Part shown: piece after piece, positions 9,667-29,349 of the stretch | How the letters are laid out: each line of letters begins with the position of its first letter | How positions within the stretch are numbered: position 1 is the stretch's first letter | Virus record (IMG/VR): IMGVR_UViG_3300023292_000026 | Span: 1-37,005 of that record | Length of the DNA stretch: 37,005 nt | From: a virus | Strand: one strand, 5' to 3' | Program-made: the position numbers and the translations under genes | Notes under the pieces: model-generated | The model's database searches: none | The model's input: the letters and a program-made list of their open reading frames with translations, nothing else | What the model was told of the DNA's origin: nothing

Positions 9667-9702
9667 AAAATAATAGGAGTCCAAAAACCAAAGGAGGTTA
9701 TG

Positions 9703-10533
9703 ATGGACAAGATAGATAAGAATAGATGGGTTGAATTGCGTAATAGGGTTGGTTTCAAAAGTGGTATGATACCACGTCTTAACAAGCAACGCTTGAAAGT
9801 AAAGGATCACGGTAAAGAGTATGCTGAAGTTGTATTCTTTGGAGATACTCACTGGGGATCTCCTCAATGTGACAGAGATCGAGCAAGGCGAATGATACAG
9901 CACTGCATAGACAAAAACATTTATGTTTTACTTATGGGTGACTTAATTGAGTTCGCTACCAGAGGATCAGTCGGCGCAGGTGTTTATGAGCAGATTATGA
10001 ACCCACATCAGCAGTTTGATGAGGTAATGGAGATGCTTACACCCTTGGCAGACAAGAAACTGATACTGGGATTGCTCCGGGGAAACCACGAATTACGTGG
10101 ATACAAGGAAAGTGGTATTGACATTGCTCGTATTATGGCGACAGAACTGGATTGTCGCTATTTAATGGATGCTTGCTGGAACTTGTGGTATGTTGGAAAG
10201 CAGAGTTATTCAATTTATTCATTGCACGGTGCAACTGGAAGTAGGTATATCTATACCAAATTGAATTGTGCTATTAAAATAGCTCACAACTTTGCTTCGG
10301 AAATCTTGGTAATGGGTCACGTTCACGAAAACGCATATACCTCAACCATCAGTCAGGTGTTGAATAAGCATACAAAAACCATCGAGGAGATGAAACACTT
10401 TGTTGTTCTTACTGGTCATTATCTTAATTATGACAAGAGTTATGCTCAACGACTTGGTATGGGGCAAGGTAAACTTGGATCACCAAAGATTAAATTCTTT
10501 GCAAACAAACACGACATTCACATTAGTTGTTAA
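9703..10533 (+). CDS. Calcineurin-like metallophosphoesterase
   Basis: I choose ATG 9703, five bases after AGGAGG, over ATG 9700; the product is 276 residues. All motifs of the two-metal phosphoesterase fold are present in order: FGDTHWG (near residue 48), MGDLIEF, RGNHELRG, SLHGATG and MGHVHEN. Phage enzymes of this type may act as nucleases, nucleotide phosphodiesterases or phosphatases; the substrate cannot be read from sequence. Its SD and its CGT/CTT/ACC codons differ clearly from the AGA/TTA-rich flanks, which suggests recent acquisition. A perfect hairpin follows the stop. Confidence 0.85.
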   Translation: MDKIDKNRWVELRNRVGFKSGMIPRLNKQRLKVKDHGKEYAEVVFFGDTHWGSPQCDRDRARRMIQHCIDKNIYVLLMGDLIEFATRGSVGAGVYEQIMNPHQQFDEVMEMLTPLADKKLILGLLRGNHELRGYKESGIDIARIMATELDCRYLMDACWNLWYVGKQSYSIYSLHGATGSRYIYTKLNCAIKIAHNFASEILVMGHVHENAYTSTISQVLNKHTKTIEEMKHFVVLTGHYLNYDKSYAQRLGMGQGKLGSPKIKFFANKHDIHISC

Positions 10534-10590: not shown

Positions 10591-11847
10591 ATGAAATTAA
10601 ATAAAATATACAATGGAGATTGTCTTAAAGTTATGAGAACATTTCCAGACAACTCAATAGATACTATAATTACTGACCCGCCTTATGGACTTTCTTTTAT
10701 GGGAAAGAAATGGGATTATGATGTGCCAAAGGTAGAATTGTGGCAAGAGGCATTAAGAGTGTTAAAACCAGGTGGAACATTATTAAGTTTTGGTGGCTCA
10801 AGAACTTATCACAGAATGGCTTGTGCCGTTGAAGATGCTGGCTTTATATTAAAGGATTGTATGCTCTGGATTTTTGGTTCAGGTTTTCCAAAAGCTACTG
10901 ATATTAGTAAGCAATTAGATAAAGGAAAAGAAAGAAAAGTTATTGGAAAGGGAAAACAACATATTTCTGGAGAAGGAAAAGATAATTCTTGGGAAAGTGG
11001 ATATAAATTAGATTATAATATTACAGAACCAGCAACACCAGAAGCTAAACTCTGGAACGGTTGGAAATCACACGGACTAAAACCAGCATATGAACCTATT
11101 ATTGTGGCTATGAAACCTAATGATGGCACCTACGCCAATAACGCCTTAAAGCACGGAGTAGCTGGATTGAATATAGATGGTGGGAGGATACCTTGTAATG
11201 ATAAACCTAAGTTCCCAGAAGGAAAATATGACCAAAATACAGATATTAAATGGAGAACAGATAAAAGAAATAAAGATACACAACCACAAGGCAGATTTCC
11301 TGCTAATATTTTGTTAGATTCCGAAGCTGGTAAAATGTTAGATGAACAGAGTGGGGAATTAAGTGTTGCTGGAAATATTAGAGAAGCAAAAATAAATGAT
11401 TATAATGCAAGTTCTTATAAAGCGGGTATTGGTAAAAGAAACCCGAAATATCATAATGATAAAGGTGGAGCTTCAAGATTTTTCTATGTAGCTAAGGCAA
11501 GTAAGAGTGAAAGGAATATGGGGTGTGAGGATATGGAATTGATAAGACATTCAGATCGTAAAAAAGATGATGGAGTTGGCGGAGATAATCCAAGAAATAG
11601 AACTAATACTTCTAAAAAGAATTTTCACCCAACAGTCAAACCACTTAAACTTATGGAATATCTTTGTATTTTAACTAAAACTCCAACAGGTGGAATTGTA
11701 TTAGACCCTTTTGCTGGATCAGGAACAACCTGTATGGCTTGCAAGAGAACAGGAAGACCATTTATAGGAATAGAACAAGATAAAGAATATTGCAAGATAG
11801 CAGAGGCACGCATTGAGGCGACAATAGTAGATAATAAATTGTTTTAA
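10591..11847 (+). CDS. DNA methyltransferase, beta class (N6-adenine or N4-cytosine)
   Basis: The product has 418 residues. The catalytic motif TDPPYGLSF is near residue 29 and the S-adenosylmethionine motif LDPFAGSGTTC near 371, the motif IV-before-motif I order that defines the beta class (N6_N4_Mtase family). The long middle part (about 95-340) is the target-recognition region. It would transfer a methyl group from SAM to adenine N6 or cytosine N4. No restriction enzyme is nearby, so it is an orphan enzyme, most likely protecting phage DNA from host restriction. It returns to an SD-less start and native codon use. Confidence 0.9.
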   Translation: MKLNKIYNGDCLKVMRTFPDNSIDTIITDPPYGLSFMGKKWDYDVPKVELWQEALRVLKPGGTLLSFGGSRTYHRMACAVEDAGFILKDCMLWIFGSGFPKATDISKQLDKGKERKVIGKGKQHISGEGKDNSWESGYKLDYNITEPATPEAKLWNGWKSHGLKPAYEPIIVAMKPNDGTYANNALKHGVAGLNIDGGRIPCNDKPKFPEGKYDQNTDIKWRTDKRNKDTQPQGRFPANILLDSEAGKMLDEQSGELSVAGNIREAKINDYNASSYKAGIGKRNPKYHNDKGGASRFFYVAKASKSERNMGCEDMELIRHSDRKKDDGVGGDNPRNRTNTSKKNFHPTVKPLKLMEYLCILTKTPTGGIVLDPFAGSGTTCMACKRTGRPFIGIEQDKEYCKIAEARIEATIVDNKLF

Positions 11848-12976: not shown

Positions 12977-13870
12977 TTGAGCAATAAGAGTGTAGAGAAA
13001 GGTGGTTGGGATTTTGAGATGCTGGCCCAGATAGATAAGGAATTATTAAAGCAGGTTGGATTTGAGAGCCAAGAATTAGACAAGATATTCAAGGATCTAA
13101 ACAAGGACGATGACGAAGTGCCAGAAGTGCCGGAGAAACCAACAAGCAAATTGGGAGAGATATATCAGTTAGGGAAGCATAGGTTAGTTTGTGGGGATGC
13201 ATTAAAAAGAGATGATGTGGAAAAGTTAATGAATGGAGTAAAAGCTAATATGGTATTTACTGATCCACCATACAACGTTGATTACGGAGTTTCAAAAAAA
13301 CAGGGAAATAAAATTAGGAAAATAAAAAATGATAATCTTAGCGCAGATGACTGGGAGATATTTTGTAAGAGTTTGTATGAGATATTTAGACAATATAACA
13401 AAGGAGATATTTATATGTGGGGAGCTCCAGGCCCGGACGGAATGAAAATGAGATTATGGTTAACGGAAATTGGTTGTCATTGGTCTGCAACAATAATTTG
13501 GAAGAAACAACAATTAGTTTTATCGCCAGCAAAGTATCAAAGAATGTATGAGCCTTGTTTTTATGGATGGTTTGACCAGAGTTCATATTGTGGAAGTAGA
13601 AAAGAAACTGAAGTTTGGGAAATAGATAGACCATTAAATTCAAAATTACATCCTACAATGAAACCAGTTGAATTGTGTGAGAAAGCAATAACAAATAGCT
13701 CAAAGAGAGGAGATATAGTATTAGATGTATTTGGTGGTAGTGGATCAACGCTAATAGCTTGTGAACAGTTAGATAGAAAATGTTATATGATGGAATTAGA
13801 TCCAAGATACACAGACGTGATAATATCTCGTTGGGAGAATTTTACTAAGTTAAAAGCAAAAAAACTATGA
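12977..13870 (+). CDS. DNA methyltransferase domain (beta class), C-terminal half of the split fusion
   Basis: Open from just after the TAA; TTG 12977 is the first possible start and ATG 13019 the next, and neither has an SD. Residues 1-45 are the usual ParB-MTase linker (GGWDFEMLAQIDKELLKQVG). The catalytic DPPYNVDYG lies at about 96 and the SAM motif DVFGGSGST at about 250, a beta-class order. HPTMKPVELCEKAI precedes the SAM site as in phage enzymes of this group. The catalytic domain is intact, so activity may survive if it is translated from an internal start. The stop overlaps the next ATG (13867). Confidence 0.85.
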   Translation: MSNKSVEKGGWDFEMLAQIDKELLKQVGFESQELDKIFKDLNKDDDEVPEVPEKPTSKLGEIYQLGKHRLVCGDALKRDDVEKLMNGVKANMVFTDPPYNVDYGVSKKQGNKIRKIKNDNLSADDWEIFCKSLYEIFRQYNKGDIYMWGAPGPDGMKMRLWLTEIGCHWSATIIWKKQQLVLSPAKYQRMYEPCFYGWFDQSSYCGSRKETEVWEIDRPLNSKLHPTMKPVELCEKAITNSSKRGDIVLDVFGGSGSTLIACEQLDRKCYMMELDPRYTDVIISRWENFTKLKAKKL

Positions 13871-14060: not shown

Positions 14061-14573
14061 ATGACAGAACAAGAAGAAGAAAAAAAAATTACTCCTGTAA
14101 ATCCGAAAGAGTCCGAAAAAGACCCTATAATAATAAAGAAAGGAGATTATAGGGCATTCATTAAATTCTATTCTTTGCCGTCAATATATAGACAGGGGAA
14201 ATATGGATATAGGACAGAACAAGACTTTGCTAAAAAGTATAATTTATGTCAGGACACTTTAACAGATTGGAAAAAGAGGAAAGAGTTTAACAATGATGTA
14301 GATATTCAATTAGCAAAATGGGGATCAGACAAGACCCCTGATGTTATTGCTGCGCTATACAGAACAATACTTAAGGATGGAAAGGCAAGTGAGGTAAAAT
14401 TATGGCTTCAATACATTAAGAGATGGAAAGAGGGAATGATATTAGAGCAATCCATTGAAACAAAAGAAAATCCGTTAATAGATTTATTAGATAAATTAGA
14501 TGAACCAACAAGAAACAGAGTTTTGGCACAACTCGAAGCTAACAGAACAGCAAGAGAACGAGGCAACATATAA
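14061..14573 (+). CDS. terS: Terminase small subunit
   Basis: The product has 170 residues. The N-terminus is acidic; the central YRAFIKFYSLPSIYRQGKYG and YRTEQDFAKKYNLCQDTLTDWK region is a homeodomain-like helix-turn-helix of the phBC6A51 type, followed by TPDVIAALYRTILKDGKASEVK. These proteins bind the packaging site on concatemeric phage DNA and present it to the large subunit. The large-subunit gene begins inside this gene, overlapping by 74 bases, the expected partner arrangement. Confidence 0.8.
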   Translation: MTEQEEEKKITPVNPKESEKDPIIIKKGDYRAFIKFYSLPSIYRQGKYGYRTEQDFAKKYNLCQDTLTDWKKRKEFNNDVDIQLAKWGSDKTPDVIAALYRTILKDGKASEVKLWLQYIKRWKEGMILEQSIETKENPLIDLLDKLDEPTRNRVLAQLEANRTARERGNI

Positions 14574-15981
14574 ATACAATTTATGTAGCTTGATTAAATA
14601 TGAGATTTATAAATACCATAGGGAAGCGAATATAAATAATTGGAGATTAGGAACACTACATAAAGAGTGGAATGATTTATTACAATCAGGTTGTAATTTG
14701 GTCATAGAAGCACCAAGAGATCATTTAAAGAGTTTTTTCTTTAGTGAGTGTTATGCATTAGAGCAATGCCTCAATGATCCTGATATGAGCATTATTATAT
14801 TAAGTGCTAGTGACGGACTTGCCAAGAGGATATTAGATCATATTAAGAAGTGGGCCAAAGCTCCACGATATAGACATTTATTAGCAGGAGCAGATATTGA
14901 TAGTAGAAAGGAAATAAGATTTAGTAACGGTGCAACGATAGAGGTAGCAGGTTTTGGTAGTAAGATTAGGGGTGGTCATTTTAAATTGATTATATTAGAT
15001 GATCCTATTGATAATCAAGTTATTTATAGTGAGGACTATAATAGAAAAACATTAGAAAGAATGTCAACAGAGATAATACCAATGGGAGAACCAAACACAA
15101 AATTTGTTATAGTAGGAACATTACAAATGGATGGAGATTTATATAGTGTAGATTGGAATAGTATTAAAATGTTAGGAAAGAGCCATTGGATACACAAGAG
15201 ATATGATTCAATAGTAGATGCAGAAAAGCATATAACACTTTACCCGGAGAAATGGGATTGGGAAAGGTTAATGGGAAAGAAACAAGAGATCATTACTTTA
15301 ACAGGTAGCGACAAGTGGTTTAACAAAGAATATCGCTGTATGCCGGTGAACATTAGTGGAGAGATAGTTAAGGTAAATGACATTCAAGGATATGATGTAT
15401 TGCCAAGCGATTGCTGGGGATTGAACCAAGATGGCACAAAGAAAATAAACATAAACAATTACTGGGGTTGGGATGCTTCAGTAGGAAAAAATCCAGATAG
15501 TGGAGATTATACGGGAGGAGTACATTTTTACAGAAGTGAGAAAGGAGATATATTTATAGACAAGATAGTCAACAAGAGAATAGGATTTGACGATAGGTTA
15601 AAAGAGATAACAGCAAATGGTAAATTATACCCTGACGCTATAAGGATCGCGGTAGAGCAGAACACATTTCAATACGATAGCGTTCAGACATTAAAGATGA
15701 ATACCAGTTTGCCAATAGTAGGAGTGCAGACAACAAAGAATAAGATAGAGAAGTTTAACGAAGTGTTGCCACCATTATTTGGAAACAGAAAGGTTTTTAT
15801 TAAGAACGGGATTGAAAACAGACAAGAATTTATAAACCAGTTATTATCATTACCAAGAGGCAAATATGACGATATGGCCGATGCTCTATGTATAGGCATA
15901 TCAGGGCTTCAACAGGTAGGAACGCCCGGAGTGACTTGGTTGTTTGATGACGACGATGACGATGGCGAATATTTAAAATAG
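14500..15981 (+). CDS. terL: Terminase large subunit (packaging ATPase and nuclease)
   Basis: The product has 493 residues. ATPase: Walker A-like APRDHLKS at 71-78, a variant without the first glycines as seen in several TerL groups, the IIILSASDGLA segment, and Walker B LIILDDPID at about 162-170. Nuclease: RNase H-like domain with WGWDASVG near 322, IAVEQNTF near 385 and GKYDDMADALC at about 455, supplying the metal-binding aspartates. It pumps DNA into proheads through the portal and cuts the concatemer. The start lies within terS; no later ATG preserves the N-terminal helices. The acidic C-terminus (DDDDDDGEY) may contact the portal. The portal is 4.4 kb downstream, beyond the glycosyltransferases. 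Confidence 0.92.
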   Translation: MNQQETEFWHNSKLTEQQENEATYKYNLCSLIKYEIYKYHREANINNWRLGTLHKEWNDLLQSGCNLVIEAPRDHLKSFFFSECYALEQCLNDPDMSIIILSASDGLAKRILDHIKKWAKAPRYRHLLAGADIDSRKEIRFSNGATIEVAGFGSKIRGGHFKLIILDDPIDNQVIYSEDYNRKTLERMSTEIIPMGEPNTKFVIVGTLQMDGDLYSVDWNSIKMLGKSHWIHKRYDSIVDAEKHITLYPEKWDWERLMGKKQEIITLTGSDKWFNKEYRCMPVNISGEIVKVNDIQGYDVLPSDCWGLNQDGTKKININNYWGWDASVGKNPDSGDYTGGVHFYRSEKGDIFIDKIVNKRIGFDDRLKEITANGKLYPDAIRIAVEQNTFQYDSVQTLKMNTSLPIVGVQTTKNKIEKFNEVLPPLFGNRKVFIKNGIENRQEFINQLLSLPRGKYDDMADALCIGISGLQQVGTPGVTWLFDDDDDDGEYLK

Positions 15982-15985
15982 AATT

Positions 15986-16087
15986 ATGGAAACGAATAAA
16001 TATAGAAAGGATAATTTAATGTTAAAATTAATTCAAATAGTTTTAGCATTATTAACAATAGCTTTATTGGTTTATTTTAATAGGTAA
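15986..16087 (+). CDS. Tiny single-span membrane protein, 33 aa
   Basis: ATG 15986 to TAA 16085-16087. Eleven polar residues are followed by a hydrophobic helix (LIQIVLALLTIALLVYF) and a short polar end. An internal ATG at 16019 would give the helix alone. It fits tightly between terL and the first glycosyltransferase (spacings of four bases each), so it may belong functionally to that block, for example as a membrane partner. Confidence 0.5.
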   Translation: METNKYRKDNLMLKLIQIVLALLTIALLVYFNR

Positions 16088-16091
16088 ATAT

Positions 16092-18590
16092 ATGTATAGG
16101 TATCATACAAACAAAAGAATAGATATTAATGGCCGAACTTATAATGAGGGAGAGATTGTTATTAGTGAAACACCAATAGAGGGACTTAAAGATATAGACG
16201 CACCGATAATAATGGTTAGCGAAATACCAAAGAAAGATTTGGCAAAGATAAAGCCAACGATAGAAAAGAAAAGAAGCTATGATATTAAGGGTAAGATAGC
16301 AGATATTATAATACCTCACCACAACAGGCACGATCTATTAAAAAATACATTAGACGCGATACCATTAGACATATTTAATATATTTATAGTAGCAGGAGGA
16401 AGTTTTGCAAGGAACTGCAACTTGGGAGCAAAGCTAGCACAGACAGACAACTTAATATTTATGAATGATGACATAGAGCCAGATATAGGATTACTGATAG
16501 AAGCTTGCAAGAACAAGGCAGATATGGTTGGCTTTTCAGAGATATTTCCAAATCAAAACAACGTAGTCATTCACGGGATAGGTTGGGAGTTAAGAGAGAA
16601 TGGAAGTATAGCTTCTAATTTAAGACGAGATCAGAGAGATGTTCACATCCCATCTGGTTTTTTGTTTAAAATGAAAAAGAATGCTTGGGATAAGTTAGGA
16701 GGATTTGATGAAAAGTTTAAGAACGGAGCAGAGGATGTTGATTTAGGGTTAAGGGCAAGAGAGATGGGTTTGAGTATTGAATACATTAGATCAGGAAACC
16801 CTGTCATACATCACCATATGCAATCAGAGGGCAGGTTAGATAAGGTTATAGATAATAAGACACGATTAAATAAGTTATGGCCAGAGGACAGAATAAAGAG
16901 AGCATTAGGATTAGATAAGAAACAAAAGAGAATACTTTTGACGAATATAAGAATGGAGCATTTCTCGGGAACAGAAACATTTACTTATACATTAGCAAAG
17001 GAATTAGAGGGTAGAGGATACAAGGTTGATGTATTTACATTTTACCCGGGAAAGGTATCAAAGGATTTATTTGAGATAACACCAAAGAATAAAGACAAGA
17101 GATTAAGAATGGATTATGATTATATTTTTATCAACCACAATAAGTGTTTAGAATACTTAAAAGATGTAAGGGGAATAAAAGTTTTAACCTGTCACGGAAT
17201 ATTTCCTGATTTAGAACAGCCAATACCTGGAGCTGATGTTTATGTTTCAATATCAGATGAAGTTAAAAATCACTTGAATGAATTAGGATATAGTTCAAAG
17301 ATCATAAAGAACGGAATTGATTGTGAGTTATTTAAACCAACAAGCAAGATTAATAAGAAGCTGACAAACGTAGCATCAATATGTAAGGGAGTAAAAGCAA
17401 ATGAAATTATTAAAGAAGCCTGCGAAAAAATAGGAGTTAATTTTAAAGCTATAAGGAACATTGAGAATAATAAGATTATTGAGGTTAAGAATGTAGAGGA
17501 TTATATAAATGAAGCAGATTTGGTGGTTAGTTTAGGCAGAGGAGCATACGAGGCTATGGCTTGTGGCCGAGCAGTTATAGTGTTTGACAAGAGAGGCTAT
17601 ATGGACAAGATGATTGGGGATGGAATAATTACCAAAGACAATGTTAATGAGGCAGTTAAAAACAACTTCTCTGGCAGGAGATACGAGATTGAATTTGACG
17701 TTGATGGAATAGTAAATGAGTTAAAGAAGTATGATCAATCAATGGGAGAGATTAATAGAGAATACGCATTAAAGAATTTTAATATCAAGAAACAAATAGA
17801 TAAGTATTTTAATCTATTAGATAAAAAGAACGATAACAACATTATGTTTGTAGGAAGTTCAACAACTGAATATGGGATAGCAAAGCAATTAGAGAAGCAG
17901 TTAGTAAAGAATGGATACAACATAGGATATGGTGGCAAAAAGATTTGTTACGCAAACGATCTAGGAAGTAAAGATCCGGCAGATGGAAGTATGATTATAT
18001 TAGAGAACAGATCAACATTTCAGAGAGCATTAAAGAGCAATGCAGATCATTACTTCTGTAAAGAGAAAAGTTGCTTAAAATTCTTCCCAAAGAACACAAC
18101 ATATTTACCCTGTGCCATTGATGATAGTATTTTTAACAAACAGAGTTTAGACAGAGATATAGACATAGGATTTATAGGAAAGGAGATGTTCAGCTCAAGG
18201 ACGAAGTTTATAAAGTTCTTGCAAGACGAATATGACAACAAGTTTTTAAAGAAAGAGGGCATATTTTTTGACAAGGTAGCAGAGTTTTATAACAGATGTA
18301 AGATAGTGCCAAATCAATGTCCGGCAGATGATACGAATATGAGATTGTTTGAGGTAACGGCTTGTGGCGCTTTATTGATTACGCCTTATGTTCCTTATTT
18401 AGAGGAACTATTTGATTTAGAAAAAGAATTAGTTATCTATAAGGATATGTATGATTTAAAAGAGAAGATAGATTATTATTTGGAACACGACAAGGAGAGA
18501 GAAAAGATTGCCAGGGCAGGACAGAGGAGAACATTAAAAAACCATACATACAAGAATAGAGTTAAAGAAATAATTAAAATAATAAAATGA
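16092..18590 (+). CDS. Triple-domain glycosyltransferase (GT-A plus two GT-B-like domains)
   Basis: The product has 832 residues. Residues 1-55 are a small beta-rich leader domain (RIDINGRTYNEGEIVI). About 70-275 is a GT2-type domain with IIPHHNR, the metal motif NDDIEP near 125 and GGFDEKFKNGAEDVDLGLR near 202-220. About 280-575 is a GT4-like GT-B domain (HFSGTETFTY near 290, IIKNGIDCELF, GAYEAMACGRAVIVFD near 484). About 590-832 is a CgeB/Glyco_trans_1_2-like domain ending FEVTACGALLITPYVPY near 753. It should transfer several sugars in turn; donors and acceptor are unknown. Codon use matches the phage, so it is not a recent arrival. The stop overlaps the next ATG. Confidence 0.85.
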   Translation: MYRYHTNKRIDINGRTYNEGEIVISETPIEGLKDIDAPIIMVSEIPKKDLAKIKPTIEKKRSYDIKGKIADIIIPHHNRHDLLKNTLDAIPLDIFNIFIVAGGSFARNCNLGAKLAQTDNLIFMNDDIEPDIGLLIEACKNKADMVGFSEIFPNQNNVVIHGIGWELRENGSIASNLRRDQRDVHIPSGFLFKMKKNAWDKLGGFDEKFKNGAEDVDLGLRAREMGLSIEYIRSGNPVIHHHMQSEGRLDKVIDNKTRLNKLWPEDRIKRALGLDKKQKRILLTNIRMEHFSGTETFTYTLAKELEGRGYKVDVFTFYPGKVSKDLFEITPKNKDKRLRMDYDYIFINHNKCLEYLKDVRGIKVLTCHGIFPDLEQPIPGADVYVSISDEVKNHLNELGYSSKIIKNGIDCELFKPTSKINKKLTNVASICKGVKANEIIKEACEKIGVNFKAIRNIENNKIIEVKNVEDYINEADLVVSLGRGAYEAMACGRAVIVFDKRGYMDKMIGDGIITKDNVNEAVKNNFSGRRYEIEFDVDGIVNELKKYDQSMGEINREYALKNFNIKKQIDKYFNLLDKKNDNNIMFVGSSTTEYGIAKQLEKQLVKNGYNIGYGGKKICYANDLGSKDPADGSMIILENRSTFQRALKSNADHYFCKEKSCLKFFPKNTTYLPCAIDDSIFNKQSLDRDIDIGFIGKEMFSSRTKFIKFLQDEYDNKFLKKEGIFFDKVAEFYNRCKIVPNQCPADDTNMRLFEVTACGALLITPYVPYLEELFDLEKELVIYKDMYDLKEKIDYYLEHDKEREKIARAGQRRTLKNHTYKNRVKEIIKIIK

Positions 18591-19327
18591 AAATAGGAAT
18601 AACAAGAATTAGAAATGAGGGATTGATTATCAAGGATACATTAGATCATTTCGGACAATGGTGCGATAAGATTTATGTTTACGATGATGCTTCAACAGAT
18701 AACACACTAGAGATAGTTAAGGCACATCCAAAGGTAGTGGGAACTATTGAGAATAAGCAATGGTATCCAGAACCAAAGAAAAGAGATTGGGCCGAGCATA
18801 CGAGCAGAGAAGCAATTTATAAGTTGGCTTCACAGAATGCTAATCACGACGATTGGTTTTGTTATTTTGACGCAGACGAGAGATTAGAATTTGATCCAGT
18901 AATTTTAGACAAGAAAGAACTCTATTATTTACGAATGAGATTATTTGATTTTTATATAACAGAGCAAGACAAGGACAGAAAATATAATGGGGATATAACA
19001 AAGTTAAGAGATTATTGTGGGCCAGAGTTTAGGGATATTATATTCTGGTTTAGAAAGAAAGCTCAACCAACTTGGTCTATTAAGTCAGAGAGAGAGCCAA
19101 AGTTAAGTGGACTTGGAGGATTAAAAGGATTGGTTAGACATTATGGCAAATCAATATCAATTCAACAATGGGAGGACACTTGCGAATATTATTCAAAACA
19201 TAGAGGAGTATATTTTAAAAAATGGAACAATAGAAGTGGAAAAGCAATACACACAAAGTCAGATCCCGGGTCAGAGCTTGTTACTTGGGAGGATGTTAAA
19301 AAATTACATAAAGAATTATTAAAATGA
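18587..19327 (+). CDS. GT2-type glycosyltransferase
   Basis: The product has 246 residues. The first 100 are a classic GT-A nucleotide-sugar fold of the Glyco_tranf_2_4 type: RIRNEGLIIKDTLDHF, VYDDASTDNTLEI (Asp33-Asp34) and the metal motif YFDADE (Asp95-x-Asp97). The C-terminal part is aromatic and basic (RDIIFWFRKKAQPTW) and probably forms the acceptor site. There is no membrane segment, so a soluble cytoplasmic enzyme is likely. ATGA overlaps on both sides tie it to the other two glycosyltransferase genes in one translational unit. Confidence 0.85.
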   Translation: MKIGITRIRNEGLIIKDTLDHFGQWCDKIYVYDDASTDNTLEIVKAHPKVVGTIENKQWYPEPKKRDWAEHTSREAIYKLASQNANHDDWFCYFDADERLEFDPVILDKKELYYLRMRLFDFYITEQDKDRKYNGDITKLRDYCGPEFRDIIFWFRKKAQPTWSIKSEREPKLSGLGGLKGLVRHYGKSISIQQWEDTCEYYSKHRGVYFKKWNNRSGKAIHTKSDPGSELVTWEDVKKLHKELLK

Positions 19328-20151
19328 ACGTAGATAGTTTTGTTGTAGTGATTAGCAGAAAATACCCAATAGCAAAATGTTTAAAAGCAATAGCAAATGC
19401 GAATATACCACGCAAAGATTTGTATTTGCTTTTATATTTAGACACAAAGGATAGGTGGTTAATAGATTATTGTAAGAACTGGATAGATTATCACGGCCAG
19501 AAGTGGTTGTCAGCAGAAATGATAATAACAAACCAAGAGCCAATTAAGATAACAAGAATTGAGGATTATAAAAAGAGATGGAAAAGGATTATTGATAATA
19601 TGCAGAGGATCATAACGCACGTTAACTTCAGCGATATAGTTTTTATAGTTGAGGATGACACGATAATACCAAAGCAGGCATTTAAGAAGCTATATAGGAG
19701 AATTAACAGAGATAAAGAGATAGGTTGTATTCAAGGAGTAGAGGCAATGAGGAACGCAGGGGATCACGGCCATTGTGGAGCTTGGAAAATGAGAGTTGAC
19801 GCAAGAGGTAAGGTTAAAAACAAGATAGGGTTAGCAGCTAAAGAGAAAGGCATAGAGGAGATAGACGGAGGTGGTTATTATTGCTGGGCTTTCAGGAGAG
19901 AGGCAATGGAACAGATTAAGCTAAGGTCAACTTGGAACGGGTGGTGTGGCCCGGATTTATGGACTTGGTATGACATAGGAGCTAATGGTTGGAAAACATT
20001 AATTGATTGGAGTGTATGGTGTGTTCACATAGGATTTGATGACAAGGGAAAATTAAAAGAATATACCCCAATATCAACAAGGAATTGGTTTTATGATTAT
20101 GAGAATGGAACAGATGATTCGCCAAAGGTAAACTTTAATTATGAAATGTAA
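19324..20151 (+). CDS. GT-A-type glycosyltransferase
   Basis: The product has 275 residues. SFVVVISRKYPIAKCLKAI and YLLLYLDTKD start a GT-A fold; VFIVEDDTIIP (Glu110-Asp111-Asp112) is the metal/nucleotide-sugar site; DGGGYYCWAFRREAM and GPDLWTWYDI resemble the acceptor side of GT2 enzymes. It is divergent, and donor specificity cannot be inferred. Third gene of the coupled block between terminase and portal. It has no signal or membrane segment. Confidence 0.78.
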   Translation: MNVDSFVVVISRKYPIAKCLKAIANANIPRKDLYLLLYLDTKDRWLIDYCKNWIDYHGQKWLSAEMIITNQEPIKITRIEDYKKRWKRIIDNMQRIITHVNFSDIVFIVEDDTIIPKQAFKKLYRRINRDKEIGCIQGVEAMRNAGDHGHCGAWKMRVDARGKVKNKIGLAAKEKGIEEIDGGGYYCWAFRREAMEQIKLRSTWNGWCGPDLWTWYDIGANGWKTLIDWSVWCVHIGFDDKGKLKEYTPISTRNWFYDYENGTDDSPKVNFNYEM

Positions 20152-20362
20152 AAATTGTGGAGGAACATTTATTAAAAAGATTAGTCGTCAGAAGTTTTGT
20201 TGTGATAGGTGTAGATCATTATATTGGTTTAGTCACAACAGGGAAAGATGGAATAATTATATGAAAGAGTGGAGTAGAAACAATAGAATAAAAAGGTTTG
20301 CAAACACGCTCAAGGACTTTAAACCAGATAAACAAGATTTTAACGACTTAAATAATTTTTGA
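20141..20362 (+). CDS. Small zinc-finger protein, 73 aa
   Basis: It overlaps the previous gene by 11 bases. Cys3/Cys6 and Cys20/Cys21/Cys24 form a CxxC...CCxxC zinc knuckle (KCKNCGGTF, KFCCDRCRSLYW), followed by a basic aromatic helix (NRERWNNYMKEWSRNNRIKR). Likely nucleic-acid binding. Similar mini-fingers occur near phage packaging genes, but I cannot assign a role. The promoter for the capsid operon overlaps its stop. Confidence 0.7.
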   Translation: MKCKNCGGTFIKKISRQKFCCDRCRSLYWFSHNRERWNNYMKEWSRNNRIKRFANTLKDFKPDKQDFNDLNNF

Positions 20363-20387
20363 CAAAGAGGCTAAAATTTGTTATAAT
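20359..20387 (+). promoter_or_regulatory. Full-consensus promoter for the capsid operon
   Basis: TTGACA (20359-20364), a 17-base spacer, TATAAT (20382-20387): a perfect sigma70 consensus. Transcription should begin near 20394, only about 13 nt before the portal ATG, with no SD. It separates the glycosyltransferase block from the structural genes. Confidence 0.85.
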
Positions 20388-20406: not shown

Positions 20407-22530
20407 ATGAATATTCTCAAAAACATAAAACAATTCTTCTCAAAAGGAGAAATCAAAAACCAAATAACAAAAGCATTTGCTAATTTAGCTGGACTACCAA
20501 CGTTAAGTGCTGGAGAATGGTCAGAAGAAAAGTATCTTGAAACATACGACAAGTCGTTAGATGTGTTTGCTTGTGTTAAAAAGATTTCAGCAAAAGTTGC
20601 TTCAATAGAATATAAGTTATTTAGAATTAAAAATTCAAAGGGTGAGCTTGAACAAATATTAGCGCACCCTCTTTTAGATCTATTAGCAAACCCAAGCCCA
20701 TTTGTTAGTAAAGCAAAGTTAATTAAATTAAAAGCAATAAACGAATTACTAACAGGAGATGGATATTGGTATAAGGCAATGATTGGAAATACGGTAGCAG
20801 AGCTTTGGAACTTAAGGCCTGATTGGATTAGAATTATACCAAGCGCAACAGATTATATAAAAGAATATATTTATAGAATACCCGGACAGAAAGAATTACA
20901 TTTTACACCAGAGGAGATTATTCATTTTAACGAGCCATCTCCATTAAAAGAGTTTGCAGATAGAACAGGGCAATCACCAATCAGACCAGCACAAGCAAGA
21001 GTGGACACTGAAGAATATGCCACGAAGTTTCAAAGGAATTTCTTTTTAAATAATGCACGCCTTGATGCAGTATTACAGTCAGATCAACCATTAAATAAGG
21101 ATAGAATAGGAGAAATACGCGATCAATGGAGTAAAAAATACAAAGGAGTAGGAAAGAACTCAAAGATTGGTATTTTACAAAGTGGATTAAAATATGTTCA
21201 AATATCAACTGCTCAAAAGGATATGGACTATATATCAGGTCTTAAAGCGACAAGGGATGATATATTTATGGCCTTTGAAATGCCAAAGTCAGTTATAGGG
21301 ATAGCAGAGGATGTTAATAGGGCCAATGCTGACGCAGCTATGGCAAGTTTTTTAACAGAGAACATTAAACCAAAGATGAGAGATTTTGTAGATACACTAA
21401 ATCAATTCCTAGTTCCTCATTTTGGTAAAGGATTGATATTAGATTTTGTTGATCCATCACCAGAGAACGTAGAGGAAAAATTAAAGATATATGAGAATGC
21501 TTCAGATAATGGATGGATGACACCAAATGAAATTAGAGAGAAAGAGGGATTAATGCCATTGAAAATTGGTGGAGAAGAAACATTAGCAAGCAGTAAAATC
21601 AATTCAATAGTAGGTTTATCTATGTATATACCTCACAAAAGAACAGTTATATTAGGACAACCAGTTCAATCAGGTATCTTTGAGGGAAGAAAAGAATTGT
21701 TTAACGACATTAGGATTAAAGAATTAAAAGATAAAATTGGAAAGCAATATAAAAAGAAAGCATCAAAAGAAAAAAAAGAATTAGATGAGTTAAAACAAGA
21801 AAAGAGAAAGATAATATGGAGAACATATTTAGCAGATTTAGATCGCAGAAAGAATATATTACTGCCAGTTGTTAGAAAATTCTTAATAGATCAAGAGAAA
21901 AGATTGTTTAGAATTATAAACGAAAAGGATTATAAGTATGAAACTAATTATAAGAAGCATATTAAGAAAGCATTATTAGATTTTGATTGGGAAGTAGAGA
22001 ATGAAAGATTAATGGCAGCAATTACACCATCAGAATTAAAGATATTAAAAATATCCGGCAACGCAGCATTAGCTAGGGTTGGTGTTGGTAAACCATTTAT
22101 ATCAGAGGGATTTATAGGAGTATGGTTACAAAACCAGATCAAAGTGGACTCTTCCTTAATAAACAAAACAACTAGAACAAAATTATCAAAACAATACTAC
22201 GAAGCATTAGCCAAAGGAGAGGGAATCAATGAAATTAAAGATAGAGTTAAGGGAGTATATAAGATTAGAGGAGATGCAGAAGCTGTTAGGATAGCAAGAA
22301 CTCAAACAGGAGCTATTATAAACGAAGCAAGCGTGGAAGCATACAAGCAAAGTGGAGTCGTGCCGAAGAAAGAATGGATTGCCACAATGGATGACAGGGT
22401 TAGACCAGAACACGCAGCAGCAGATGGACAAGTTGTAGATGTAGACAAACCATTTGAGGTTGGTGGACATTTAAAAAATGCTCCAGATGATATAAATTGT
22501 AGGTGCGCAGTTGGCCCATTTATAGAATAA
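20407..22530 (+). CDS. Portal protein fused to a MuF-type minor head domain
   Basis: The product has 707 residues. About 1-400 is an HK97-family portal: SLDVFACVKKISAKVASI, HPLLDLLANPSPF, ELWNLRPDWIRII, FQRNFFLNNARLDAVL, then KATRDDIFMAFEMPKSVIG. About 410-520 is a lysine-rich linker. About 600-707 is a Phage_Mu_F/SPP1 gp7 domain: RIARTQTGAIINEASVEAY, WIATMDDRVRPEHAAADGQ and NCRCAVGPF. The portal is the dodecameric DNA channel at one capsid vertex; MuF proteins are carried inside the head. Here both come as one chain, known in some phages but less common. The very short leader and strong promoter suggest high late expression. Confidence 0.9.
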   Translation: MNILKNIKQFFSKGEIKNQITKAFANLAGLPTLSAGEWSEEKYLETYDKSLDVFACVKKISAKVASIEYKLFRIKNSKGELEQILAHPLLDLLANPSPFVSKAKLIKLKAINELLTGDGYWYKAMIGNTVAELWNLRPDWIRIIPSATDYIKEYIYRIPGQKELHFTPEEIIHFNEPSPLKEFADRTGQSPIRPAQARVDTEEYATKFQRNFFLNNARLDAVLQSDQPLNKDRIGEIRDQWSKKYKGVGKNSKIGILQSGLKYVQISTAQKDMDYISGLKATRDDIFMAFEMPKSVIGIAEDVNRANADAAMASFLTENIKPKMRDFVDTLNQFLVPHFGKGLILDFVDPSPENVEEKLKIYENASDNGWMTPNEIREKEGLMPLKIGGEETLASSKINSIVGLSMYIPHKRTVILGQPVQSGIFEGRKELFNDIRIKELKDKIGKQYKKKASKEKKELDELKQEKRKIIWRTYLADLDRRKNILLPVVRKFLIDQEKRLFRIINEKDYKYETNYKKHIKKALLDFDWEVENERLMAAITPSELKILKISGNAALARVGVGKPFISEGFIGVWLQNQIKVDSSLINKTTRTKLSKQYYEALAKGEGINEIKDRVKGVYKIRGDAEAVRIARTQTGAIINEASVEAYKQSGVVPKKEWIATMDDRVRPEHAAADGQVVDVDKPFEVGGHLKNAPDDINCRCAVGPFIE

Positions 22531-23451: not shown

Positions 23452-24738
23452 ATGTTCGTATTAAAAGATATTTTAGCCAAAGAACTCAAAGACCTTTCTG
23501 ATGAAGAAAAAGCATTTTTAGCTGAACACGCCAGTGAATTAACTGACGAACAAGCTAAAAGTTTTGAAATCACCAAAGAAGTTGATGAGGGAATTGACAC
23601 AAAGGGATTAGGGGAATTGATTAAACTTGAAGTAGATCAAAAAGTTAAATCAGTTGTAGATAAAATGGTTGCAGTTAAGAGAGGAGAAATCAATGTAGCC
23701 AGTGAAACATTGCCATCAAGTGGTAAATGGTCACAAAAGACAATGGATTGGTGTGTATCGTTGACGCAAGGAGATTTAATGCAAATGAAAGCATTAACAA
23801 CTTCTTCTGGTGATACCCCAAAAGCAGGATATACTATTCCATCTGAATTATTTAACGAAATAATTAGATTAATAGAGGATGTATATGGTGTTGCTCGTAG
23901 AGAAATGAGATATTTACCTTTCAGCGGCCCAGGAAATACTAGAGATATTACCGCATTAGGTAGTTCTGTTTCTATGACTTGGACTGATGAAGCCATATCA
24001 AAGACAGCCACACAACCTGTATTCGTAAGAGTACAACAAACATTAAAGAAATTGGCTTGCATTATTCCTATGACAGAGGAATTGTTACAGGATACTGCAA
24101 TCAACTTACCTGGCTTGTTAGCTGACTTAGTAGCTGAAGCAACTGCGCAAGAAGAAGATGAGCAATTCTTTGATGGTAATGGTGCGCCTTGGACTGGTAT
24201 TTGTAATAACGGAAGTGTAACTCCTGTTGTTATGGCTGCTGCATTAGGATTTGCCGACATTACTGCTGAAAACTTACTAGATATGCAAGATGCAGGTTTA
24301 GTAGGTGCTCACAATGGAGCTAAATACTATATGCAAAGAACTATTTTCAGTTATGTTAGAAAATTGAGAGAAGATTCAATAGCTGCTGGAGATGGTCTAG
24401 GAGCATTCATTTACCAAAGGCCACAAGGAGAAATTCCTGCAACTATTTGGAATTATCCTTTTGAATTAGTAGAGGGAATGCCTGACAAAAATGATAACGC
24501 CATCAATAAGGGTTTTGTTATTTTTGGTAATCTTAAGCGTTATGCCATTTATGGAGACAAAGGTGGTATGCAGGTTAAGATTTTAACAGAAGCTACCATT
24601 ACTGATACAGACAGACAGACCTCAATCAATCTTGGTCAACAGGATATGATTGCTTATAGGTTTGTGGAAAGGGTTGGTTATGTTTTACCAAAACCAACTG
24701 CCATTGTTGTTCTTAAGACATCAGGAACAATTAGCTAA
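23452..24738 (+). CDS. Major capsid protein, HK97 fold
   Basis: The product has 428 residues. The first 100 or so are a charged helical delta-type domain (LAKELKDLSDEEKAFLAEH), normally removed by the prohead protease. The HK97 fold follows from about 110: AGYTIPSELFNEIIRLIED, EEDEQFFDGNGAPWTGIC in the E-loop/A-domain region, and a C-terminus with GDKGGMQVKIL and QDMIAYRFVERVGYVLP. It forms the icosahedral shell. Codon use shifts toward GCT, GGT and CTT compared with the AGA/TTA/ATA-heavy neighbours, consistent with a highly expressed protein. A long hairpin follows the stop. Confidence 0.92.
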   Translation: MFVLKDILAKELKDLSDEEKAFLAEHASELTDEQAKSFEITKEVDEGIDTKGLGELIKLEVDQKVKSVVDKMVAVKRGEINVASETLPSSGKWSQKTMDWCVSLTQGDLMQMKALTTSSGDTPKAGYTIPSELFNEIIRLIEDVYGVARREMRYLPFSGPGNTRDITALGSSVSMTWTDEAISKTATQPVFVRVQQTLKKLACIIPMTEELLQDTAINLPGLLADLVAEATAQEEDEQFFDGNGAPWTGICNNGSVTPVVMAAALGFADITAENLLDMQDAGLVGAHNGAKYYMQRTIFSYVRKLREDSIAAGDGLGAFIYQRPQGEIPATIWNYPFELVEGMPDKNDNAINKGFVIFGNLKRYAIYGDKGGMQVKILTEATITDTDRQTSINLGQQDMIAYRFVERVGYVLPKPTAIVVLKTSGTIS

Positions 24739-25523: not shown

Positions 25524-28112
25524 ATGTCTACAATATTCAAAAATATAGTTAATCGTTTTAATACAACGATAAAAGCCGGGAGCAGTATCAATAATTCTGA
25601 TGATCCTGTTACTTTTAATATTACAGACGATACAGGACTACCGTCAGAGCCATTTTATATAACAGTAGAACAATTAACAGACAATACTGTATATGAGAGA
25701 ATGCTCGTTACGGGTGTATCAGGAGATGAATTAACAGCAACGCGTGCGCAAGACGGATCATCAAAACAAACATTCGCTGCCGGTGATCTAGTGCAGATAA
25801 GAGTTATAGCAGCTCATATTGACGAGCCAACAGATGCTATAAATATATTAGAGGACATAAAAGATTATGCTGATAGCCCAATGGTTATTGCCGGAGGAGT
25901 AATTTCAGATGGAACGAATGCAGGAACATTTAAAGTAACTGCTTTAACTGCTTTATTTAGAACAACAGATAGTATAACAGGAGAATTAGTTGAGTTAGCA
26001 TTAGCAGAACAAGATAACCAAGCAATTACTGCTGCTGATACGACTTATTTTATTAGTTTAAATTATAATGATGGAGTAACACCAACAATTACTTTATCAA
26101 CAACAAAACCTTATGGGCCAGACGCTGCCGATTATAGAAACATACCAATAGGAAAAGTAATGAAAGATGGAAGCGATAATGTTCATTATATTTCAGGTGG
26201 ATTTAATTTTCAAGACGGAGTTGAGAAACTTCATCAAAGAGCATTAGAATTAAGAGCATTAGAATTACAAAGTGGCTCTACTATTGCTTATTCAGGAACA
26301 AATAATTTTACAATGGAATTAGGAGTGGCTTATGGTGGAATAAATAGAATTTCTTTTGCTCAATATGATAGTGCAGCAGTTCAATTTACAGGAGTTAGAG
26401 GAGATGGAGGAGCTGGTTGGACGGAAGCTCTATCAAATGTTATTGACTATGCTCACTATGATGATGGAGCAGGAGCATTAGGAAATATAGCAAACAACAA
26501 ATATGGAGTTCATTGGGTTTATAGACACATAGACGATGGACACGTTTACGTCAGATTAGGACTTGATAGTTATTCTTTAGCTGGAGCAGAGGATGCACAA
26601 GAGCCAACAAAACCAACTCACTTGTCAGATTTTGGAGTTTTAATAGGAAAAATAATTGCTCCACAAGCAGGGGGAAGTTTTACTCTTATTCAAATGGTAA
26701 CTGATATAATATTCACAGGAACGGCCGCTTCTGATCACGGAAATCTTACTGGATTAGCAGATGATGACCATACTCAATACGCTTTATTAGTAGGCAGAGC
26801 AGGTGGTCAAACTTTAATAGGTGGAACAGCAAGTGGAAATGATTTAACTTTACAGTCAAGTTCAGATGGAACAAAGGGAAATATTTATTTGGGTGCTGCA
26901 CAAACTTCTTATTTTGATGAAACAACAGAGAATTTAATAATCACAGGAGATATAGGTTTAACTGGCACAAGAGTAGTAAAAGGTTGGTTTGATGATTTAG
27001 AAGTAACTAATCCTATTGCTGGATCTATCACAGGACAAGCTGCAACAGTAGCAACTATTACTGGTTTAGCTCCTGATACAGCTACTGAAGCTGCCGCACA
27101 AGCTGCTATAACTTCTTTAGGAACACTTACAGGACTAACTATGGGTGGAAATATAGTAATGGCAGACAATTCTATTACTGGAATAGATACTTTAACATTT
27201 ACAGACACAGCAGGAACAATAGCAGGCATTGCTAATGGTAATTTACTTGATAAAACTGCTGCTGAAACTATTACAGGATATTATCTTTTTGACAGAAATT
27301 TTACAGGAACTACTGAAGTAGGTATGCGAGTAGATATGGATAAAACAGTAGGCAGTAATAGAACAAGCAATGACACTGCTTTTAATTGTGATAATGCTCA
27401 AGTAGTAGATGAAACATTTACTAATTCTGGATATAGTTCAGGAATAGGAATAACATCTTATAAAGTTGGATTAGGAACTTTATCTAAATTATATGGAGAA
27501 AGAATATTATATGGTTCAAGTGGAGCAGATAAAGGAACAATAACAACTGCTTATGGATTACAAATATTCCCATTATTAGGTTCAGCAACTTCAGCTATTA
27601 CAACGAACTATGGAATAAAGATTGAAAATATGGTAGGCACTACCAAGTATGCCATTTATTCAGGAACAGGTGCTGTTCATTTTGGAGATACATTAGCTTG
27701 TGGTGCTATAACTTCTACTGGAGGAACTAATTTTTCTTCTAATAACACAAAAATAGTAAGAGGAACAAAAGCTATGACTGGTTCTGCTGTAGATGTAGCA
27801 GAGGTTCAACTTGGTGGAAGTTGGGAAACTCAAGTAATAGAAGTTAAAGTTGTGCAGGGAGGAGGTCAAGTCATTGTTTCGCAAAAAGAATCTTCTACTT
27901 GGAGGGGACATTCTTCAACTACCCCAACTCAAAATGGAGCTACTACTACAGTATGGGGAGACGGAACAATTACTATAACCTATACGGCAGATGCTGCTGG
28001 TGGAATTACAATAGCATTAACTGGAACAGATGAATATTATCAAATATTTGAAATAAGTATTATGGGCGGAACTGATGCGGGAGTAGGAAATGCCACAATA
28101 ACGCTTTTATAA
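25524..28112 (+). CDS. Large fibre-like virion protein in the head module
   Basis: The product has 862 residues. N-terminus about 1-100: a beta domain (TRAQDGSSKQTFAAGDLVQIRV), often an attachment domain in fibre proteins. Middle: GLADDDHTQYALLVGRAGG near 411, GNDLTLQSSSDGTKGNIYLG and TMGGNIVMADNSITGI repeats, all typical of trimeric phage fibres. C-terminus (about 745-862): a Gly/Thr/Ser-rich beta domain (VRGTKAMTGSAVDVAEVQLG). Its position between capsid and neck genes, far from the tail fibre, suggests a capsid-attached fibre or decoration that may bind host or other surfaces. Codons resemble those of the capsid gene, suggesting good expression. Confidence 0.78.
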   Translation: MSTIFKNIVNRFNTTIKAGSSINNSDDPVTFNITDDTGLPSEPFYITVEQLTDNTVYERMLVTGVSGDELTATRAQDGSSKQTFAAGDLVQIRVIAAHIDEPTDAINILEDIKDYADSPMVIAGGVISDGTNAGTFKVTALTALFRTTDSITGELVELALAEQDNQAITAADTTYFISLNYNDGVTPTITLSTTKPYGPDAADYRNIPIGKVMKDGSDNVHYISGGFNFQDGVEKLHQRALELRALELQSGSTIAYSGTNNFTMELGVAYGGINRISFAQYDSAAVQFTGVRGDGGAGWTEALSNVIDYAHYDDGAGALGNIANNKYGVHWVYRHIDDGHVYVRLGLDSYSLAGAEDAQEPTKPTHLSDFGVLIGKIIAPQAGGSFTLIQMVTDIIFTGTAASDHGNLTGLADDDHTQYALLVGRAGGQTLIGGTASGNDLTLQSSSDGTKGNIYLGAAQTSYFDETTENLIITGDIGLTGTRVVKGWFDDLEVTNPIAGSITGQAATVATITGLAPDTATEAAAQAAITSLGTLTGLTMGGNIVMADNSITGIDTLTFTDTAGTIAGIANGNLLDKTAAETITGYYLFDRNFTGTTEVGMRVDMDKTVGSNRTSNDTAFNCDNAQVVDETFTNSGYSSGIGITSYKVGLGTLSKLYGERILYGSSGADKGTITTAYGLQIFPLLGSATSAITTNYGIKIENMVGTTKYAIYSGTGAVHFGDTLACGAITSTGGTNFSSNNTKIVRGTKAMTGSAVDVAEVQLGGSWETQVIEVKVVQGGGQVIVSQKESSTWRGHSSTTPTQNGATTTVWGDGTITITYTADAAGGITIALTGTDEYYQIFEISIMGGTDAGVGNATITLL

Positions 28113-28335: not shown

Positions 28336-29349
28336 ATGTTTGATAGAATAATATTTGACAAGCCAACTTATGATGGTTTAGACCATTGGGAGAAGTCAGA
28401 ATCAGATACTGGCGCTGGAGTAGATTCAATAACAGGATTGTTAGTACAGCTAGGAATATCAGATACAGGAACAGGTGTGGATGCAATAATGGCACTATTA
28501 TCAGAGTTAACTTTAAGTGATACTGGTAGTGGATCAGATGCATTGACAGACATAGCAAGCCAAATAACAGCGTCAGATACAGGGACAGGAACAGAGTCAT
28601 TAGCATTACTGGCCCAAATAGCTTTAAGTGACACAGGAACTGGGGCAGAAGCATTAGCCTTGTTAATTAGTATAGCTTTATCAGATACTGGTACTGGGAC
28701 AGAAGTATTAGACATATTGGTTAATTTAGCATTAAGTGATACAGGAGTAGGAATAGATATAATAAATTCATTAACAAACGCGATAAGTGTCAGTGATACA
28801 GGAGTAGGAATTGAAGCATTAAATATATTAGCACAAATAGCATTAGCAGATTTAGGATCAGGAGTAGAGAATATTACAAGGAATAAAGAAATGACTTTAT
28901 CTGATACTGGAACTGGAGTGGAAGCATTATCAATACTGACTAATGTAGCTTTATCAGATACAGGATTAGGAGTAGAGGCATTATCAACACTTATGTCATT
29001 AACTATTAGTGATACAGGCACAGGAACTGAAATAGTAAATATATTGGCCAAGATAGCTTTGTCAGATAACGGAATAGGAACAGAGGGATTATCAATATTA
29101 AATCAAATTATATTAAGTGATAGTGGATTAGGAGTGGAAGCAGCGACTATATTAGCGCAGGTATCATTAAACGACACAGGGATAGGTAATGAAGCATTAG
29201 CAATTATGGCAAAGTTAAGTTTAAGTGATAGTGGAGTTGGTGTAGATGTAATAGAAGTTTTCAAAAAAATAAATCCATACTGCACAAAGACATCTCCATA
29301 TTCTCGTAAGGATTCTCCATATTCAAGGATGTCAAGCAGTTGTAATTAA
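28336..29349 (+). CDS. SDTGTG-repeat structural protein
   Basis: The product has 337 residues: a short N-terminus (FDRIIFDKPTYDGLDHWEK), then 16 tandem units of 18-19 residues with consensus S-D-T-G-x-G-x-E-A-L-x-I-L-x-x-I-A-L, and an end with two SPYSR motifs and three cysteines. The regular Asp/Gly turn and hydrophobic strand spacing fit a beta-solenoid or a calcium-binding stack. Similar DTGxG repeats occur in other phage structural proteins, but I know of no function. Location before the neck genes suggests a head or head-tail component, perhaps a spacer or fibre. Confidence 0.75.
   Translation: MFDRIIFDKPTYDGLDHWEKSESDTGAGVDSITGLLVQLGISDTGTGVDAIMALLSELTLSDTGSGSDALTDIASQITASDTGTGTESLALLAQIALSDTGTGAEALALLISIALSDTGTGTEVLDILVNLALSDTGVGIDIINSLTNAISVSDTGVGIEALNILAQIALADLGSGVENITRNKEMTLSDTGTGVEALSILTNVALSDTGLGVEALSTLMSLTISDTGTGTEIVNILAKIALSDNGIGTEGLSILNQIILSDSGLGVEAATILAQVSLNDTGIGNEALAIMAKLSLSDSGVGVDVIEVFKKINPYCTKTSPYSRKDSPYSRMSSSCN
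28402..29261 (+). repeat. Tandem 54-57 bp coding repeats (16 units)
   Basis: DNA encoding the SDTGTG units, one every 54 bases (57 in the first three and the seventh). Copies are diverged at the DNA level, so this is an old array kept by selection rather than a recent expansion. It creates long open frames on the opposite strand that are not genes. Confidence 0.85.

Follow-up and report, generated by a model that had tools for sequence, protein, structure and literature searches.

A glycosyltransferase cassette with constant ends and a variable middle among the head genes of an uncultured phage, a probable virion-glycosylation system

Introduction

The descriptions that we found of phages glycosylating their own virions all concern cultured actinophages. 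In mycobacteriophages (Che8, Rita and those of cluster O), glycans on the capsid and tail tube have been described (PMC11600133 and PMC11256854, citing Freeman et al. 2023); the same papers record three tandem glycosyltransferase (GT) genes adjoining an O-methyltransferase gene in cluster O (PMC11600133), and GT genes near the 3′ end of the genome in Maravista (PMC11600133, PMC11256854). Here we describe a block of GT genes in the IMG/VR virus record IMGVR_UViG_3300023292_000026 (37,005 bases, of which positions 1 to 37,005, i.e. the whole stretch, were analysed and are called the window below). The block lies between the terminase gene terL and the portal gene and is probably a virion-glycosylation cassette.

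The window phage resembles the mycobacteriophages in being a tailed phage with several tandem GT genes, and cassettes related to its own also hold methyltransferase genes. It differs from them in fusing three GT domains in one protein, and in carrying its GT genes inside the head module, with a middle that has been swapped between phages and without homologues in deposited phages beyond weak matches. A tblastn search of 50,697 deposited phage records gave no matches or weak ones, none of them to mycobacteriophages, although distant GT2/GT4 homology is still possible. The mycobacteriophage system is defined by a glycan on a virion protein, while the one described here is known from genes alone; membership is not claimed.

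The chlorella virus PBCV-1 builds its capsid glycan with multi-domain, cytoplasmic GTs that work one after another on the capsid protein (A064R, A111/114R; PMC7019647). The likeness is one of architecture only, namely a virus-encoded polypeptide with several GT domains in one open reading frame (ORF); unlike the window phage, PBCV-1 is a eukaryotic virus with an unrelated capsid. O-antigen and capsule loci have constant ends flanking an exchangeable central part on which the glycan type depends, and they contain GT, nucleotidyltransferase and methyltransferase genes. Unlike these loci, the cassette of the window is much smaller, lies in a phage head module, has no polymerase or flippase and probably acts on a protein acceptor. 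As for gtrABC O-antigen conversion, no Pfam match to the GtrA flippase, GtrB or a serotype-specific transferase was found in the window.

Results

The cassette has constant ends and a variable middle

An earlier note on this DNA had described three ATGA-coupled ORFs at 16092-20151, flanked by terL and portal. The coordinates and overlaps are as given there (both junctions, 832-aa/GT246 and GT246/GT275, are exact ATGA overlaps), and the flanks are identified by matches to phrog_38 and to PF04860/PF04233, respectively. Two features had been missed, namely a gene that belongs to the block, for a protein of 73 amino acids (aa) at 20141-20362, and a hydrophobic micropeptide between terL and the block. 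The parts of the locus are as follows:

16019 to 16087, + strand: hydrophobic micropeptide of 22 aa, MLKLIQIVLALLTIALLVYFNR, with GAAAGGA upstream; a 33-aa form starts at 15986
16092 to 18590, + strand: triple-domain glycosyltransferase of 832 aa (Pfam)
16092 to 16196, + strand: constant N-terminal leader, residues 1-35 of the 832-aa GT (54% identity with the L034 leader)
16287 to 16916, + strand: GT-A domain, residues 66-275 of the 832-aa GT, the marker domain seen in 16 phage lineages
16929 to 17822, + strand: GT-B domain of GT4 type, residues 280-577 of the 832-aa GT (PF13439, PF00534)
17838 to 18587, + strand: second GT-B-like domain, CgeB-type, residues 583-832 of the 832-aa GT (PF13524, E 8e-34)
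18587 to 19327, + strand: GT246, GT-A glycosyltransferase of 246 aa with DD and DADE motifs (PF13704, E 1e-14)
19324 to 20151, + strand: GT275, GT-A glycosyltransferase of 275 aa with invariant EDDT and GPD motifs (PF13641, E 5e-10)
20141 to 20362, + strand: CxxC/CxxxC protein of 73 aa, a probable zinc ribbon, overlapping GT275

Near relatives were defined by a terL 65-100% identical to that of the window; they are L029, L034, L036, L020/L014, L037 and near copies (relatives are referred to by L numbers). The metagenomes 3300025586, 3300035698 and 3300025642, which contain near relatives, come from Ace Lake, Antarctica (PMC8542988). In all near relatives, terL and portal are separated by GT genes. 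GT275 occurs in each of those covering the locus, with 58-90% identity to the protein of the window and more than 100 invariant positions among seven sequences, and the 73-aa gene is found in all of them except L036. The middle differs: GT246 is absent from L029, L020, L037 and L036, and L036 has only the first GT-A domain of the triple GT, in a protein of 311 aa. In L034, the middle starts with a 729-aa protein containing two GT2 domains and a GT-D domain, and further comprises a methyltransferase gene without a start, a cytidylyltransferase-HAD fusion, a truncated fragment and a 213-aa protein.

Between the window and L034, nucleotide identity is 81-89% over most of terL, falls to 49-58% between 16250 and 19250, and is back at 84% from GT275 onwards. 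The 832-aa and 729-aa proteins share 54% identity over their first 35 residues (two-sequence E 5e-15); beyond this leader, the two proteins are unrelated except for a generic GT motif. The block is a cassette in which the leader, GT275 and usually the 73-aa gene are constant and the middle varies.

Two further observations concern this region. The micropeptide ORF (15986-16087, 22 or 33 aa) has a good ribosome site and a near-identical counterpart in L029, and a similar small hydrophobic ORF lies upstream of portal in L025. L011 (1-8831) is 100% identical to L029 up to about 4.0 kb (with GT275 at 94-95%) and to the window beyond, the switch lying inside portal. We considered it as a direct cassette swap and left it out of the evidence, since an assembly chimera of co-occurring phages could give the same pattern as a natural recombinant.

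The triple GT has moved between phages

The 832-aa GT of the window is 68%, 64% and 64% identical to those of its group mates L029, L020 and L037, respectively. It is also 67% identical over 819 aa to a protein of L070 and 65% identical over 766 aa to one of L072. The portal protein of L070 is 28% identical to that of the window and its capsid protein has no direct BLAST match; in L072, portal and capsid are both unrelated, with no portal match detected. The triple GT follows the capsid gene in both phages. This identity of 65-67% despite unrelated capsids, together with the position after the capsid gene, indicates that the triple GT moved between phages and yet stayed with the head genes. 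GT246 is likewise 71% identical to its counterpart in L070, where it also comes after the triple GT, and is missing from the closer relative L029. In a tree of the 832-aa family, the four group mates do not group together, and forcing them into one clade is rejected by the approximately unbiased (AU) test (p = 0.008), a result of moderate weight as it involves seven sequences and one long branch. GT275 homologues were found only in the window's own group upon searching viral relatives, deposited phages and 84,980 species, with no match in the species collection. Judged by these comparisons, the stable trait is having a cassette between terL and portal, not its content.

Distant relatives keep the enzymes in the head module

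The 832-aa family was used for a search that was blind to neighbouring genes. It returned 26 loci from about 16 lineages (the window group; L070/L077; L072; L075; L078; L079; L080; L082; L083; L084; L085; L086/L087; L088; L089; L090/L091; L006). Neighbourhoods were assigned to the head module by PHROG matches, BLAST to the proteins of the window and gene order. All 16 lineages carry their homologues of the marker GT-A domain in the head module, among the terL-portal-protease-capsid-adaptor genes, and in most cases the capsid gene is immediately upstream, as in L070, L072, L075, L078, L079, L080, L082, L083, L085, L086 and L089. L088 and L090 have them between portal and capsid, L006 has them around the protease and capsid genes, and L084 before the head-tail adaptor. 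No such homologue turned up in a cultured phage. For L083, L085, L086 and L088, the capsid gene was recognised from BLAST matches to capsid genes already identified, not from a PHROG search of its own.

The capsid proteins of these lineages fall into five groups without mutual BLAST matches. Seven lineages are represented by contigs of at least 24 kb, which are less affected by selection for hallmark genes, and all seven are positive for the head module. If the head module were half of the genome, 16 out of 16 would occur about once in 65,000 draws, a figure that serves as a guide only. In contrast, GT246-type genes, whose family a search with GT246 also found in many other viruses, lie no more than 5 kb from a portal or capsid gene in three of the seven contigs where one could be located, and 17-69 kb away in the other four, two of which may be the same phage.

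The terL-portal position, for which a survey of related phages had been proposed, is fixed only in the window's own group, and elsewhere the enzymes stand after capsid or between portal and capsid. Since other phages carry the same enzymes elsewhere among the head genes, the placement rule is "head module" and not "terL-portal". The reported lack of sugar-nucleotide genes is true of the window; the cassettes of relatives add nucleotidyltransferase, nucleotide-sugar epimerase, methyltransferase and sulfotransferase genes. In L072 (10301-13604), the triple GT is followed by a methyltransferase, a GT246-type GT, a GT64-like protein and a sulfotransferase, which suggests that the glycan predicted for this cassette is sulfated. 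The first 20,000 bases of L054, the 93 kb contig that contains L006, belong to a large unrelated phage and hold several GTs, a TylF-type methyltransferase and a nucleotide-sugar epimerase around the protease and capsid genes.

Domains and folds of the enzymes

Profiles bear out five GT domains across the three overlapping genes, three of them (GT-A, GT-B and CgeB-like) in the single 832-aa ORF. In this protein, PF13524 matches residues 714-828 (E 8e-34), and PF13439 and PF00534 score above their cut-offs within residues 292-512. The N-terminal domain is below the cut-off in the window (PF00535/PF13641, 18-19 bits) and is backed by homologues, four of four of which match GT2-type models; a relative in L006 reaches 68.6 bits for PF00535. 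The domain calls for the 832-aa protein rest on profiles, because its AlphaFold model (built from four sequences) reached a pLDDT (predicted local distance difference test) of 33 and was discarded as unusable. Structure prediction, also proposed in the note, did yield a GT-A fold for GT275, at low confidence (pLDDT 58.7; Z 11.8 against solved GT-A enzymes). A Foldseek resemblance of GT275 to collagen galactosyltransferases and LH3 was considered as a hint of a protein acceptor and rejected, since GnT I, TarP and GtrB score almost equally; the matches thus indicate the GT-A fold only. Sequence searches of the PDB gave nothing useful.

The GT proteins have no obvious membrane segments (top 19-residue hydropathy 1.48). 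The 35-aa leader of the window has no match to a known virion domain. The leaders of other cassettes match DUF7302 below the cut-off (PF23976, E ~1e-3) and a head-tail connector PHROG (E 0.02), which we treat as leads only.

Genome context of the cassette

The first and last ORFs of the window are the two halves of one tail-fibre-like gene. Because the record ends join in frame, the window probably represents the whole genome of a siphophage in circularly permuted form. Genes for a peptidoglycan amidase and a cell-wall hydrolase point to a bacterium as the host; a terL search across the 84,980 species gave matches at 19-25% only, in scattered phyla. The features around the cassette are:

14061: start of the terS gene
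14500 to 15981, + strand: terL, 5′ flank of the cassette (phrog_38, E 4e-56)
20359 to 20387, + strand: extended sigma-70 promoter-like site, TTGACA-17-TATAAT with TG, directly before portal
20407 to 22530, + strand: portal-MuF fusion, 3′ flank of the cassette (PF04860, E 7e-62; PF04233)
22549: start of the protease gene, between portal-MuF and the capsid gene
23452 to 24738, + strand: HK97-type major capsid protein, candidate acceptor (PF05065, E 6e-43)
25524 to 28112, + strand: fibre-like structural protein of 862 aa, candidate acceptor (phrog_8469)
28336 to 29349, + strand: repeat protein, candidate acceptor (18-aa SDTGTG-type repeats, 22.6% Ser+Thr)
29367: start of the head-tail adaptor gene, with tail genes after it, among them a predicted tail tube gene at 31249-32451

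The fibre-like protein directly follows the capsid region and is 20% Ser+Thr. Its residues 1-111 are conserved and the remainder is variable or exchangeable, with lengths of 862, 524 and 537 aa in relatives. The repeat protein consists mostly of its 18-aa repeats; the L030 homologue has 429 aa, hence the repeat number varies.

The sigma-70-like site is the sole 12/12 match in the window, lies about 20 bases upstream of the portal start, and is kept in L029, L011 and L034. This consensus site just before portal suggests joint transcription of the GT block and the terminase genes, with a separate start for the capsid operon.

Codon use of the block genes is unremarkable, as had been noted (z -1.8 to 0.4); that the block is an established trait does not follow from it, given that the middle has been exchanged between phages. 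Within the window, a metallophosphatase gene at 9700-10533 (+ strand) deviates most in its codon use (z -8.5) and is possibly a recent acquisition. Two N6/N4 DNA methyltransferase genes lie at 10591-11847 and 12977-13870 on the + strand, the latter with a small ParB-like ORF immediately upstream.

Discussion

We read the block as a virion-glycosylation cassette of the head module that would place a strain-specific glycan on a head protein, and consider this reading probable. Within it, we infer the virion acceptor, the order of the steps, the role of the leader and the benefit. Late in infection, the soluble GTs would assemble a short glycan from nucleotide sugars of the host on a protein of the head or head fibre, the candidates being the capsid protein (23452-24738), the fibre-like protein (25524-28112) and the repeat protein (28336-29349). 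An enzyme shared by phages with unrelated capsids probably recognises a sugar rather than the capsid, and parts that stay with the structural genes of one group probably face the protein; GT275 is therefore the likely primer, with docking likely for the leader and extension for the middle. The constant parts (GT275, the 35-aa leader and usually the 73-aa protein) travel with the group's own virion proteins and would do the acceptor-specific work: GT275 may add the first sugar, and the leader may serve as a docking element that keeps the extending enzyme at its substrate. The swappable middle, i.e. the triple GT and GT246, would contribute up to four more transfer steps and so decide which glycan is made. 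Related phages would thereby come to have different coats, the benefit being shielding or an altered virion surface. The window phage would draw its sugar donors from the host, and other cassettes would bring activating and tailoring enzymes of their own.

Several points weigh against this reading. The head-module position also fits any late-expressed enzyme, and the promoter-like site at 20359 may split the GT block from the capsid operon. The 16 lineages are only partly independent of one another, and short contigs are biased towards hallmark genes. For GT275, there is no homologue beyond the group by which its role could be calibrated, and the block is predicted to be dispensable in the more distant relatives L024, L025 and L026 (terL 44-46% identical), because there terL is followed by portal with no GT, and no GT2-type domain occurs in their available DNA. 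Lastly, glycan, acceptor and enzyme activity are all predictions from gene sequences.

The alternative that survives best, though we consider it unlikely, is that the GTs alter the host surface polysaccharide late in infection, for release from debris or for a superinfection block, so that the head-module position would reflect late expression only. The authors of a study of pelagimyophages explain the many GTs of those phages in this way (PMC7029224), and cell-envelope pathways likewise contain proteins of the GT-D, TagD/RfaE-like and TuaG-like kinds to which L034 shows similarity. However, the GTs have no obvious membrane segments, the window has no flippase or lipid-linked transferase of the GtrA/GtrB type, and surface-glycan genes would have no reason to stay beside the capsid gene across five capsid families. 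Of the two targets named in the earlier note, a virion protein or the host envelope, the virion is now the best reading, strengthened by the neighbourhoods in relatives, and the envelope has become less likely.

It is far less probable that the block is a passenger whose accessory genes are tolerated because the gap is permissive and which lacks any consistent function in the virion. The lack of the block in L024-L026 and the truncated methyltransferase genes in the middle of L034 would agree with such a passenger, but the catalytic motifs and the constant genes are conserved, and GT275 is kept by every covered near relative.

Least probable of all is that the GTs glycosylate phage DNA against restriction and CRISPR nucleases, as phage GTs commonly do glycosylate DNA (one passage of PMC12619734 cites Pyle et al. 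2024 for diverse glycans on virus DNA), but the ORFs of at least 200 aa in this probably complete genome include no base-modification gene (no hydroxymethylase, TET/JBP-type oxygenase, thymidylate-synthase homologue or base kinase, a host-made base being possible), two N6/N4 methyltransferases are carried instead, and the enzymes track head genes rather than DNA-metabolism genes, in agreement with the first assessment that DNA glucosylation is unlikely.

Returning to virion glycosylation, what is new here is an enzyme family without a close match in deposited phages that recurs beside unrelated capsid genes, and a specificity module that is swapped while the ends are kept. GT2-type genes adjoining a capsid gene may serve as a search rule for similar systems. 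More tentatively, and with rather less confidence than in the cassette itself, we propose that head-module glycosylation cassettes form a mobile pool common to uncultured phages, in which the leader and priming GT that are constant in the window's group stand at the ends and an exchangeable assembly line lies between them, such that phages with unrelated capsids could share a glycan and sister phages could differ in theirs; this would be a virion serotype system parallel to the O-antigen loci. If true, the glycan type of the virion would be a fast-changing, transferable phage trait, with a bearing on adsorption, predation, and host or immune recognition.

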